Shown here: piece by piece, positions 8,878 through 21,604 of the stretch | Numbering within the stretch: the first letter of the stretch is position 1 | How the letters are laid out: every line of letters begins with the position of its first letter | NCBI GenBank assembly: GCA_037147175.1 | Contig: JBAWVS010000047.1 | Span: 1-21,604, forward strand | DNA: 21,604 nucleotides | From: a bacterium | Lineage (GTDB): Bacteria; Cyanobacteriota; Vampirovibrionia; Gastranaerophilales; UBA9971 | Direction of reading: 5' to 3' | Program-made: the position numbers and the translations under genes | Notes under the pieces: generated by a model | The model's database searches: none | Told to the model about the DNA's origin: nothing | What the model saw: only the letters and a program-made list of their open reading frames with translations

Positions 8878-9500
8878 AATCAGGACAGAAAAAATCAAAT
8901 TTATTCGTTTTAGAATAGAAAAGGAAACAGATTTATGACAAAATTCTTTCAATCTATGCCAAAGGAATGTCCAAAGAGGCAATTAATTCAAATATTGAGG
9001 ACCTCTACAAATTCTCTGTTTCAAAAGAACAAGTTTCAAGGGTAACTGACAAAATCCTTCCCATCGCAAAAGAATGGCAAAATAGACCTCTTGATAGCTT
9101 TTACACTGTCATTTTTCTTGACGGAATGAGCTTTGATATTAGAGAAAACAGAAGTTATCACAAAAAGACGGTTTACGTCATTATCGGAATTAGAATTGAC
9201 GAAAGAAAAGAGCTCTTTGGCTTGTGGATAGGTGAAAATGAAACATCCAAATATCGTAAACCAATATCAAATGATTTAAAGGCCGGAGGCGTTCACGATA
9301 TTCTAATAGCTTGTGTTGACGGGCTTAACGGATTTGAACAGGCAATGAATTCTGTTTCTCCTTTGACTAAAACCCTGTGTGGTATTGTTCATATTATTCG
9401 AAATTGCACACGTTATATGAATTACAAAGCCATAAAAGCCTTTTGCTCTGATATGAAGCCAATTTACAAGGCAGTTAATGAAGAATCCGCACTTCTTTAA
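8878..9500 (+). pseudogene. Decayed IS256-family (Mutator-type) transposase fragment
   Basis: The longest intact stretch (177 codons from the ATG at 8967) aligns with the centre of IS256-type transposases: YAKGMSKEAI (partly upstream of the ATG), VSRVTDKILP, EWQNRPLD, the first catalytic Asp in FLDGMSFDI, AVY-like TVYVIIGIRIDERKELFGLW, GENE, and the second Asp in ILIACVDGL, then IVHIIRN. Family members have about 400 residues; this one lacks roughly the first quarter and the whole C-terminal part with the catalytic Glu, so it cannot be active. Homology continues upstream in two frames (DRKNQIYS near 8881, then KQIYDKILSIYAKG before 8967), with a stop and a frameshift between. It ends 4 bp from the flgL stop codon, tail to tail, without damaging flgL. 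Confidence 0.85.
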
Positions 9501-12076: not shown

Positions 12077-12562
12077 TCAGGCTTCATGTTCTACAGAACT
12101 TAAATCAAAAAGTCTTTTACTTGTCTTTGTTGCTCCTTTTTTGTTATAGGCAGATCCTTCAGGGACAAGTGCATTTGCAATTATAACAATAGAATTTTCT
12201 ACTATTTTTAAAGAATGTTTTAAAAGTTCTATATTTATTGTGTTTTGTTTTTGAATGTTGGATAAAAGATTTTTTATTTTATCTCTAAGATTAGAAATTT
12301 TATTCGCCTGTTCTTTGTTTTCTATTCTTTCAATAATTTCTTTAAGTGTAGAATTGTCGGGATAAACAAGTTTTCTTTTTTCTTCCAGTTTTTCTACAAT
12401 ATAGTTGTATTTTTCAAGTTCTAAATCAACAATTCTGATTTTTTCTATATCACCGTTGATAAGATGCTGTTTTTTTCCGCTAATATATTCTTCGAGCTTT
12501 GAATAAGCTTCTATTTCCTGATTTAAAATTTTTTCAAGTTCATAAATTGAATTGGTATCCAT
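12077..12562 (-). CDS. flgN: FlgN-like flagellar export chaperone
   Basis: This is a 161-residue, almost entirely helical, charged protein with heptad-like leucine and isoleucine spacing. It starts ELEKILNQEIEAYSKLEEYI, a typical FlgN family opening, and the central KLEEKRK and ISNLRDKIKNLLSNIQKQN segments fit its coiled-coil body. FlgN binds FlgK and FlgL in the cytoplasm and delivers them to the export gate. Sequence conservation in this family is weak, so the call rests strongly on length, helical character and position directly upstream of flgK. GGGAGG precedes the ATG. Confidence 0.8.
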   Translation of the reverse strand: MDTNSIYELEKILNQEIEAYSKLEEYISGKKQHLINGDIEKIRIVDLELEKYNYIVEKLEEKRKLVYPDNSTLKEIIERIENKEQANKISNLRDKIKNLLSNIQKQNTINIELLKHSLKIVENSIVIIANALVPEGSAYNKKGATKTSKRLFDLSSVEHEA

Positions 12563-18209: not shown

Positions 18210-18860
18210 TTATTTCTTGTATTTACAAGAAGGACAAAGATTTTCACCTTCGGGGGAATAATATTTTATAGTAATTCCACACTCCGAACATACGGGAAAA
18301 CCGTTATTTTTGCGCCATTCCTGTATTTTTAAATCTTTTATTATCGTGTTATACATTTTTTCTTTTAATTCTTCCGAATAAAAACTTTGATCCCCTAAAG
18401 ACTTTTTTATAGACAAAACAGCACTTTGTGAAAGTTCTATCCTGTTTAATTCTTCCTCTGTAAAATTCTTTTCTATTTTATAAAAATTTTTATTTTCTTC
18501 TTCTGTTTTTTGTTTTGTTTCTTTTTTTAATTCTTCCCATATTTTTGAATTAAACAAAATATCTTTTATATTGTAATTAAAGTCTTTTGCAACAACCTTT
18601 ATTTTTTTTATAATATCTTCTTTGAAAAAACTCAATTCCTGCGCTACAGCGGAAGAAGAAACGGCAACCGTCAATATATCCTCTCCCTGTCTTGATTGAA
18701 TATAAACAACTTTAGACGAATTTTGAAATTTTGGACCAACTATTTTTGACCATAATTTAGCAAATTCCTGTTGTTTAAGACCTTTATCTAGTCCCATTTC
18801 AACCATTACAGAGTTTAATACACTTTCTATGTTATTAAAATAATTATTCTTTTCCTTCAA
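18210..18860 (-). CDS. dciA: DciA-like (DUF721) replicative helicase loader candidate with zinc-ribbon tail
   Basis: The product has 216 residues. Residues about 8-105 match DUF721/DciA: IESVLNSVMVEMGLDKGLKQ, then LWSKIVGPKFQNSSKVVYIQ and LTVAVSSSAVAQELSFFKED. DciA proteins interact with and help load the DnaB helicase in bacteria lacking DnaC or DnaI. A lysine/glutamate-rich linker follows, and the last 30 residues carry two C-x2-C pairs (CSEC and CPSC), a zinc ribbon that is not part of the core family. The gene follows recF by 17 bp and ends the dnaN operon, next to the likely origin; that location supports a replication role. The helicase-loader assignment comes from family knowledge. Confidence 0.82.
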   Translation of the reverse strand: MKEKNNYFNNIESVLNSVMVEMGLDKGLKQQEFAKLWSKIVGPKFQNSSKVVYIQSRQGEDILTVAVSSSAVAQELSFFKEDIIKKIKVVAKDFNYNIKDILFNSKIWEELKKETKQKTEEENKNFYKIEKNFTEEELNRIELSQSAVLSIKKSLGDQSFYSEELKEKMYNTIIKDLKIQEWRKNNGFPVCSECGITIKYYSPEGENLCPSCKYKK

Positions 18861-18877: not shown

Positions 18878-20029
18878 TTAAATAATCTTTCCTGATTCTA
18901 TATTATAAACAACAACTTCTTCAAGAAATTTTTCGTTAAAACCCGAAATATCTGTTGTTGTAATGATTGTTTGGGTATCCTCTTTAATTGATTTCAGCAA
19001 ATAATTTTGTCTGGTTTTATCGAGTTCCGCTAAAACATCATCCAAAAGCAAAATCGGACTTTCGCCTATAATATTTTTTACAAAATCAAGCTCAGAGAGC
19101 TTTAAAGCAAGCACAATAGTTCTTTGCTGACCCTGCGAAGCAAAACTTTTTGCCTCTATTTTGTTTATATAAAAAGAAACATCATCTCTATGAGGACCTA
19201 TAACTGTTTGAAACCTTGCTATTTCTTCATTTCTTTTTTTTTCAAAAGTTGTTTTATATTCTTCTAAAATATTTTCAGGAGAAATTATTTCATCTTCTCT
19301 TGCATTAAAATTACCTGAAACTGTTGAATTATACTCTAAAACAAGGTCTTCTTTTTCTTCCTGAGAAATGTTTTTATGTTTTAAATTAGCTATCTTTTGA
19401 ACTTCTTTGAGATATTTTTGCCTTAAATGAATAATATTGCTTCCTGAAACAGAAAGTTGTTCGTCAAAAACAGCTAAAGTATCCTGTTGTACTTTGTTTA
19501 AATGAAAATTGCCTTTAAATTCTTTTAATAAGTTATTTCTCTGCGTTTTAATCTTGTTGTATTTACCTAATCTGTCTTTGTAAGAAGGATAAATCTGGCT
19601 TATTGCATCATCTAGCCATTTTCTTCTATCTGAAGGTGTTCCTCTTAATAAAAGCAAGTCTGAAACACCAAAGTTTACAACGACAAGATTGCCTAAATAT
19701 TGGGAATAAGAAGATTTTTTTAATCCGTTAACTTTGATGAGCTTTTGTTTTGGCGGATTTATAAAAATGCTTAAATCAATATCTGTTTCGTTTTTAATTA
19801 ATTCTGCGCTTAAAAAAGAAGAATCACTTCCTTTTTTTATAACTTCTGAATCATTATTAGCTCTAAAAGAAGAAAGGGTGGCTAAATAATAAATACTTTC
19901 CAGTAAATTTGTTTTTCCCTGAGCGTTTTTACCTAAAAGTATTATTTTATTTCCTGAAAAATCTATTTCGCAGGAATCATAATTTCTAAAATTTATTAAT
20001 TTTAACTTTTTAAGAAAAATTTTTATCAC
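18878..20029 (-). CDS. recF: DNA replication and repair protein RecF
   Basis: RecF (383 residues from this start) is an SMC-like ATPase that helps load RecA at gaps. Walker A GKNAQGKT lies at residues 33-40, the ABC-type signature ASQGQQRTIVLALKLSE near 300, and Walker B PILLLDDVLAELD shortly after. LKLINFRNY near the N terminus is the standard opening. I used the GTG ending at 20029 because a purine-rich stretch (AAGGGGAGG) lies just upstream; a GTG ending at 20050 is also in frame but has no binding site and would add seven residues encoded by a low-complexity, palindromic segment. It follows dnaN, the usual order near bacterial origins. Confidence 0.94.
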   Translation of the reverse strand: MIKIFLKKLKLINFRNYDSCEIDFSGNKIILLGKNAQGKTNLLESIYYLATLSSFRANNDSEVIKKGSDSSFLSAELIKNETDIDLSIFINPPKQKLIKVNGLKKSSYSQYLGNLVVVNFGVSDLLLLRGTPSDRRKWLDDAISQIYPSYKDRLGKYNKIKTQRNNLLKEFKGNFHLNKVQQDTLAVFDEQLSVSGSNIIHLRQKYLKEVQKIANLKHKNISQEEKEDLVLEYNSTVSGNFNAREDEIISPENILEEYKTTFEKKRNEEIARFQTVIGPHRDDVSFYINKIEAKSFASQGQQRTIVLALKLSELDFVKNIIGESPILLLDDVLAELDKTRQNYLLKSIKEDTQTIITTTDISGFNEKFLEEVVVYNIESGKII

Positions 20030-20108
20030 CCTCCCCTTCTCTTCCCTCACAAGGGAGGAAATAAAAGAGTTTTAGGTTTACCCTTTATACTTTGTTTTTA
20101 ACTCGGTT

Positions 20109-21221
20109 CTAATTAACCTGAACAGGCATTATAAGGCAAAGAAAATCATCTTCACCATCCGGTTTAAACAAAGTACCTGCTAAAGCACCGTTAAGCTCTA
20201 TTAAAACTTTGTCTGAATCAACTACTTTAAGAAAATCCTGAATATATTTGTGATTAAAAGCTATATTTAATTCTTCTTCCGAATATTCAACATCTATTTC
20301 ATCGCAAGAATCTCCTAAATCAGGAGTATCAGCTGTTAATTTAAGTTTGTTATCGTTAAAATTCATTTTAACAATGTTTGTTCGTTCATTAACCATTGTT
20401 GAAGCTCTGTCTATAGCTTGATTTAATAAATTTTTATCTGCTATTGCTTTTATTTCATAATTTTTAGGAATTAATTGCTCATAAGCAGGATATTGTCCTT
20501 CTATAAGCCTTGATGTTATACATCTGTCTTTTAATTTAAACATAATCTGGCTATTTTTAACGGTTATAGAAACTGTTTTATCTTCAACACCGGATAAAAT
20601 TCCTGAAAATTCTTTTAAAGTTCTGGATGGAATAACCACCGCATAATCTTTTTGCTCTTTATTTTGTATATTTTCTTTTACTCTTGTAAGTCTGTTTCCG
20701 TCAGTTGCAGCCATTTCAAGATTGTTTCCGCTTGTTTTAAAGAAAACTCCGCTTAAAACATTATTTGTATCATAAGTTGCCGTTGCAAAAGTTGTTTGTT
20801 TTATTGCTTTAATCATTGGAATTATATCTATATTTATAAATTCTTCTGATTCAGGATATTCAATCTGAGGAAATTCGCTTGCTGAAATACCTTTAATATC
20901 AAATTTTGATTTGCCGCATTTAATTTCCATTAAATTATTATCTTCATTTAGATTAAAACTAACTGCTTCACTTGGTAATTTTGAAATTATTTCAAAAAGT
21001 TTTTTGGAAGGTAAAGTAATACTTCCTTTTTTTACAATAATTGAAGGAATATTTATTTCTATTGAAATATCAAGATCGGTTGCACAAAGCTTTAAGAGAT
21101 TTTCTTCTGTTGTTTCCATTAAAACATTTGATAAAACAGGCTGAATTCCACGAGAAGCTGCTGCTTTTCCAACTACATTTAATCCATTGTAAATAACATC
21201 TTTTTGAACTGTAAATTGCAT
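20109..21221 (-). CDS. dnaN: DNA polymerase III beta subunit (sliding clamp)
   Basis: DnaN (370 residues) is the ring-shaped processivity clamp. Three repeated clamp domains are evident: residues about 1-120 (MQFTVQKDVIYNGLNVVGKA, ending in CGKSKFDIKGISASEFPQ), about 128-245 (FATATYDTNNVLSGVFFKTS, TDGNRLTR, then VVIPSRTLKEF) and about 246-370 (LIEGQYPAYEQLIP, STMVNERTNIVKM, then NHKYIQDFLK). The C terminus LCLIMPVQ is the conserved end of the family. AGGAG precedes the ATG. Being the first gene beside the origin region, it probably has its promoter inside that region, as in many bacteria; no clear -35/-10 pair stands out. It heads the dnaN-recF-dciA operon. Confidence 0.97.
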   Translation of the reverse strand: MQFTVQKDVIYNGLNVVGKAAASRGIQPVLSNVLMETTEENLLKLCATDLDISIEINIPSIIVKKGSITLPSKKLFEIISKLPSEAVSFNLNEDNNLMEIKCGKSKFDIKGISASEFPQIEYPESEEFINIDIIPMIKAIKQTTFATATYDTNNVLSGVFFKTSGNNLEMAATDGNRLTRVKENIQNKEQKDYAVVIPSRTLKEFSGILSGVEDKTVSITVKNSQIMFKLKDRCITSRLIEGQYPAYEQLIPKNYEIKAIADKNLLNQAIDRASTMVNERTNIVKMNFNDNKLKLTADTPDLGDSCDEIDVEYSEEELNIAFNHKYIQDFLKVVDSDKVLIELNGALAGTLFKPDGEDDFLCLIMPVQVN

Positions 21222-21318
21222 AATATTTTTTATCTCCTAAAAAAGTGACTTTTGACAGTTTAATTTTTTATCCTATTTATATTTTACTTACTAAATAAAA
21301 TATATTAATTTATTAATT

Positions 21319-21330
21319 TAGTAGTAGTAG
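21319..21330 (-). other. DnaA-trio run
   Basis: TAGTAGTAGTAG on the plus strand is four consecutive trio units in the orientation used for single-strand loading of DnaA: it lies between a DnaA box and the A/T-rich unwinding tract, with the CTA units on the strand that reads away from the box. In Bacillus subtilis the same order (box, spacer, trio, A/T tract) defines the unwinding site. Confidence 0.7.
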
Positions 21331-21478
21331 AGGAGTCTAATTTCTGTAGAAAAGCGGTTAAACCATAGACTATACTTTAAAAAAGGTTGTAGAAAAACTG
21401 TCATGAGGTTGTATAATAGTTAAAAGTTTTATACATGTTCAAAAGTTTTATACATGTGTTTTCTACAGTGTTGAAAAG

Positions 21479-21511
21479 GTTTTAAACAAGTTTTAAACAA
21501 GTTTTGAACAA
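21479..21511 (+). repeat. Three 11-bp origin iterons
   Basis: GTTTTAAACAA occurs at 21479-21489 and 21490-21500, and GTTTTGAACAA at 21501-21511, in tandem without gaps. Each contains TTTT(A/G)AACA, which shares seven of nine bases with TTTTCTACA, so they look like low-affinity DnaA sites phased on one face of the helix. Confidence 0.65.
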
Positions 21512-21604
21512 GTGGTTAAATATTAAAATTTATTAAGTTTTTTTGAAATCACTGGCTTTTGTTTTATGAATCCACCTGCTGAATTTATGCTGATCATAAC
21601 TTAA

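Follow-up and report, generated by a model that had tools for sequence, protein, structure and literature searches.

The locus upstream of dnaN

The window, i.e. the whole stretch of DNA analysed here (21,604 nt), is an entire contig (C47) of its assembly (2.66 Mb, 109 contigs), and the nearest named relative of the genome is 'Cyanobacteria bacterium UBA9971'. From the origin side, the gene order on the minus strand is dnaN, encoding the DNA polymerase III beta clamp (20109-21221; PF00712, PF02767, PF02768), then an adjoining recF-like gene named from context and match (18878-20050; PF02463), and then, in the same gene row, dciA for the helicase operator (18210-18860; PF05258). The dnaA gene of this genome is not beside dnaN but sits on contig C5. 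No TTWTNNACA site was found in the 448 bp upstream of it, and autoregulation of dnaA via its own boxes was hence rejected.

Read on the dnaN-sense strand, the region upstream of dnaN starts with a DnaA box TTTTCTACA (21345-21353, minus strand), which we refer to as the unwinding box and which lies 251 bp from the contig end (21604). It is followed by a 14-nt spacer GAAATTAGACTCCT (21331-21344, minus strand), four DnaA-trios (21319-21330, minus strand; reading CTA in the dnaN sense and 3'-GAT-5' on the opposite strand), an A/T-rich tract of 93% A+T (21262-21318, no strand assigned) and finally dnaN. An earlier note on this sequence had described four tandem TAG units next to an A/T tract, in an order matching the basal unwinding system (BUS) of Bacillus subtilis, and our analysis bears out units, tract and order alike. 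The published BUS search rule asks for a DnaA box at most 16 nt away from at least three NAN trios (PMC8287927), and the window offers four CTA trios at a distance of 14 nt. The tract likewise corresponds to the A/T-rich unwinding element of a bacterial oriC. In family f1, a second conserved element (TTTAGTARGTAAAAT, by eye) occurs between the A/T tract and dnaN; its counterpart in the window is TTTAGTAAGTAAAAT (21281-21297, minus strand), which may be the dnaN promoter.

Counting the unwinding box, ten TTTTNNACA sites were found within the 383 bp upstream of dnaN (21222-21604); relative to that box, the other nine have offsets of 43, 82, 91, 101, 114, 124, 135, 146 and 157 bp. Three exact copies of TTTTCTACA within 123 bp, as the note had it, are indeed present: the unwinding box itself, a second copy at 21388-21396 (minus strand, offset 43), which is conserved in most relatives, and a third at 21459-21467 (plus strand, offset 114). 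The other sites are degenerate boxes, namely TTTTATACA on the plus strand at 21427-21435 (offset 82) and 21446-21454 (offset 101), and TTTTGAACA (21436-21444, offset 91) and TTTTCAACA (21469-21477, offset 124) on the minus strand, the latter two not common to relatives. Three repeats of 11-bp pitch (21479-21511, plus strand; offsets 135, 146 and 157) contain the boxes TTTTAAACA at 21480-21488, again TTTTAAACA at 21491-21499 and TTTTGAACA at 21502-21510.

This density is well above chance. In 5000 dinucleotide-keeping shuffles of the 383 bp, the observed counts were never reached for TTTTCTACA (3 observed, mean 0.015; 0/5000), for TTTTNNACA (10 observed, mean 0.58; 0/5000) or for (CTA)3 (2 observed, mean 0.006; 0/5000), and a box cluster above chance is what a bacterial oriC should show. 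A fourth TTTTCTACA copy of the window lies outside this region, at 12390. Genome-wide, 98 copies of TTTTCTACA compare with 89 of a reversed control pattern. The motif is thus not globally enriched, and no other triplet in the genome is as tight.

Conservation and spacing in relatives

The dnaN upstream regions of relatives likewise contain the box, the 14-nt spacer, the CTA trios and the A/T tract. Of 26 genomes of the same order, 24 have TTTTCTACA as the box preceding the trios and two have ATTTCTACA. Where the search recognised a clear box-trio module, the spacer measures 14-15 nt in the majority of the class members sampled. The trios of relatives read CTA, TTA or ATA, i.e. their bases drift while the register is kept. 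Some modules, above all in f2, f32 and f37, were overlooked or wrongly placed by the automatic regular expression and were identified by eye instead. With DnaN as a query against the genome contigs, one relative only was obtained.

Furthermore, the spacing of the whole array is conserved. In families f1, f3 and f4, offsets of 43, 54, 65, 82/83, 101, 114, 135, 146 and 157 bp recur, exact to the base in most of these genomes, and family f2 has a fixed set of its own (43, 55, 87, 116, 133 and 155 bp) with mostly TTA trios. Boxes at offsets 0-65 face dnaN, and in f1, f3 and f4 those at 82 bp or more mostly face away, which suggests that the boxes form two opposed DnaA arrays. The rigid array spacing, directly observed like the sequence and its conservation, is a new detail. 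So is the class-wide box: the note had suggested a lineage-specific box, one base off the cyanobacterial one, and the single-base difference holds, although the box is common to much of the sampled class and not confined to this genome.

The arrangement is not found everywhere. No box cluster and no trios were found upstream of dnaN in G034 (L027) and G029 (L029), so the origin location is not universal in the order; in these members, either the origin or dnaN has moved. Upstream of dnaN, no TTWTNNACA cluster was found in family f34 (L187-L191, L140-L142), and f36 (G111) showed neither boxes nor a clear skew switch there. In L010 (G009), a repeat-like, GC-rich insertion some 150 bp ahead of dnaN parts the unwinding region from the gene. 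In the relatives L033 (1131-4546) and L017 (2858-4113), the origin is flanked by dnaN and by a putative proBA-like pair, named from sequence, together with a small ORF without Pfam match. The last bases of the window are the end of this small ORF.

DnaA residue 433 and the sixth box base

The DnaA box consensus is TTWTNCACA and the cyanobacterial box is TTTTCCACA (PMC5043019, PMC4674748). At position 6, the window box has T in place of the cyanobacterial C, and all ten TTTTNNACA sites of the 383 bp lack C there. Among the publications searched, those containing TTTTCTACA together with DnaA were not about origins, as judged by title and abstract. Asp433 of DnaA (E. coli numbering) is reported to be highly conserved and to contact box position 7 (PMC8235120), which directly adjoins position 6. 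The note had proposed checking whether DnaA domain IV residues fit the altered box, and an altered DnaA does go with it: residue 433 of the own DnaA is Lys (Lys432 in its own numbering) instead of Asp. Among tabulated contact positions of DnaA, it alone is of a different kind in Cyanobacteriia and in the lineage of the window. Asp433 was present in all 30 sampled DnaAs of Cyanobacteriia and outgroups, and in none of those sampled from the window's class.

The bases follow a similar partition. Upstream of dnaN in 25 Asp genomes, C stands at position 6 in 79 of 86 TTWTNNACA sites, and in 35/36 sites of eleven genomes without residue scoring. For 14 Lys genomes of the own order, we counted 83 T, 34 A, 2 C and 2 G. 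T is found in 28/41 sites of f31, and T and A are mixed in f32 and f33. Where residue 433 is Arg (f37), the trios are preceded by TTATTGACA, with G at position 6, in 3/3 genomes; where it is Gln (G106), a skew-verified origin carries three TTATCAACA with A. Boxes in f8 (Thr433) resemble TTWCTTACA by eye. Two genomes are exceptions, G158 with Arg433 yet T at position 6, and G126 with Lys433 and TTTTAAACA before the trios. In f34, the DnaA recognition motif is RGNSA, with both Asp433 and His434 replaced. The association of residue and base is directly observed, and it suggests that residue 433 and box position 6 tend to change together across the group; that residue 433 caused the base change is what we infer.

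How often this happened was estimated by parsimony on a tree of DnaA sequences from which the recognition helix had been left out. Residue 433 needs five changes. Four of them we read as a basal change from Asp to Lys, two changes from Lys to Arg (one in f37, one in G158) and one from Lys to Gln in G106; the fifth hinges on where the tree is rooted and on how its basal branches are ordered. Residue and base move together in three of the four events read, with G106 on a long branch and of uncertain placement in the tree.

Alternatively, A/T mutation pressure alone might have altered the box, and Lys433 might merely coincide with it through common descent. The change from Asp to Lys and that from C to T each fall on one ancient branch, so that this pair alone provides no replication, and G158 kept T despite Arg433. 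However, base composition does not explain the pairing of residue and base: C is retained in AT-rich Asp genomes (35% GC), and T in GC-rich Lys genomes (56% GC). This control does not support A/T pressure as the only reason for the C-to-T change, and the changes to Arg with G in f37 and to Gln with A in G106 also speak against it. We regard such a coincidence as somewhat doubtful, if well worth considering. Residue and box changing together could amount to a natural code, Asp-C, Lys-T (or A), Arg-G and Gln-A, in which the sister class of cyanobacteria, itself non-photosynthetic, would have given up an Asp that is highly conserved elsewhere and repeatedly changed the specificity of its origins, initiator and boxes together each time. 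For this far-reaching version, we see the balance as even. The code is a hypothesis drawn from a small number of events. It makes chemical sense, in that Asp-C, Lys-T, Arg-G and Gln-A could plausibly pair in the major groove.

Probable origin function and known systems

GC skew was evaluated in relatives, as the own assembly consists of 109 contigs. In G020, of the same order, eight blocks left of dnaN range from -0.09 to -0.19 and 12 blocks right of it from +0.05 to +0.15. The switch is less clean in G031, also of this order, where 8/8 left blocks are negative and 6/8 right blocks positive, the two exceptions being near zero or slightly negative. G106, a complete single contig from another order and family of the class, shows one sign change at dnaN and a second one on the far side. 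With a box array above chance, rigid spacing and this directly observed skew switch in relatives, the dnaN upstream region is very probably, and in our judgement nearly certainly, an oriC with a basal unwinding system, one that is ordinary in kind.

The boxes lie directly upstream of dnaN and could instead only regulate its transcription or titrate DnaA, the true origin being elsewhere. The skew evidence comes from relatives of a genome in 109 contigs, and another box pair exists in this genome: the closest other TTTTCTACA copies stand at C1:134099/134112 (to 134120; locus L326, about 1600-1621), on the same strand at 13-bp pitch, intergenic and beside repeat-like sequence, and are perhaps a DnaA titration site. 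Against a merely regulatory or titrating cluster upstream of dnaN stand the preserved order of box, spacer, trios and A/T tract, the skew switches at the site in G020, G031 and G106, and the usual position of cyanobacterial oriC next to dnaN (PMC6323995, PMC4674748), so that we consider it very improbable.

The three 11-bp repeats, which the note had called iterons, exist as near-identical head-to-tail units, but as separate iterons of a Rep-type initiator, i.e. direct repeats distinct from DnaA boxes and accompanied by a rep gene, they are hardly credible and refuted in practice by offset alignment: each is a degenerate DnaA box, L008, L012 and L013 carry perfect TTTTCTACA in an 11-bp-pitch triplet at offsets 135, 146 and 157, from which it follows that the GTTTTAAACAA units are weakened boxes at fixed places, and no rep gene was seen among the window ORFs.

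Taken as an origin, the locus would work as follows. DnaA would bind TTTTCTACA at 21345-21353 and spread from this box onto the trios at 21319-21330, thereby opening the A/T tract toward dnaN. The fixed-distance boxes, some of them weak, would form a forward array (0 and 43 bp, extended by boxes at 54 and 65 bp in relatives) and an opposed reverse array (82, 101, 114, 135, 146 and 157 bp) that load the DnaA oligomer. Position 6 would be T and not C because the recognition helix of this lineage's DnaA has Lys432 where E. coli has Asp433. Binding, opening and loading are what we infer; in this explanation as a whole, with the stretch as the chromosomal replication origin, we are highly confident.

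In Escherichia coli oriC, the unwinding element is flanked by boxes of both strong and weak type that are arranged as two opposed groups. The window resembles it in this arrangement, and differs in spacing and sequence. Like the B. subtilis BUS (incC; PMC8287927, PMC10201434), it combines box, spacer, CTA-type trios and A/T tract, adjoining dnaN in the same polarity. In contrast to B. subtilis, its box is TTTTCTACA and not TTATCCACA, there is one clear box with a 14-nt spacer instead of a tandem pair, and dnaA does not adjoin. With cyanobacterial oriC it shares the position at dnaN, a box cluster, trios and, as in many cyanobacterial species, the separation from dnaA (PMC4674748, PMC6323995). 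It departs from the cyanobacterial TTTTCCACA type in T6 and Lys433 in place of C6 and Asp433, and Cyanobacteriia with a clear module have, unlike the window, a tandem box pair before the trios. Epsilonproteobacterial boxes (core TTCAC; PMC5043019) are likewise lineage-specific and tied to changes in DnaA recognition helix 5; there, however, T is strict at position 5 and Asp433 is kept, whereas here position 6 and residue 433 change.

The organism is a non-photosynthetic relative of cyanobacteria, and the site is most likely where copying of its chromosome starts. DnaA and its box are thought to be nearly fixed across bacteria, as many sites must match one essential protein. If residue and box did move together, in up to three steps, this would show how an essential initiator changes its specificity and would offer a direct swap experiment. 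It would also supply correct box motifs for origin finding in a group known mostly from metagenomes.

Elsewhere in the window, two features were noted by eye. A putative truncated transposase-like ORF (8967-9500) adjoins a flagellar gene cluster, and two nucleotidyltransferase-like ORFs and a HEPN-like ORF stand in a row (142-1299), an arrangement typical of MNT/HEPN toxin-antitoxin pairs.
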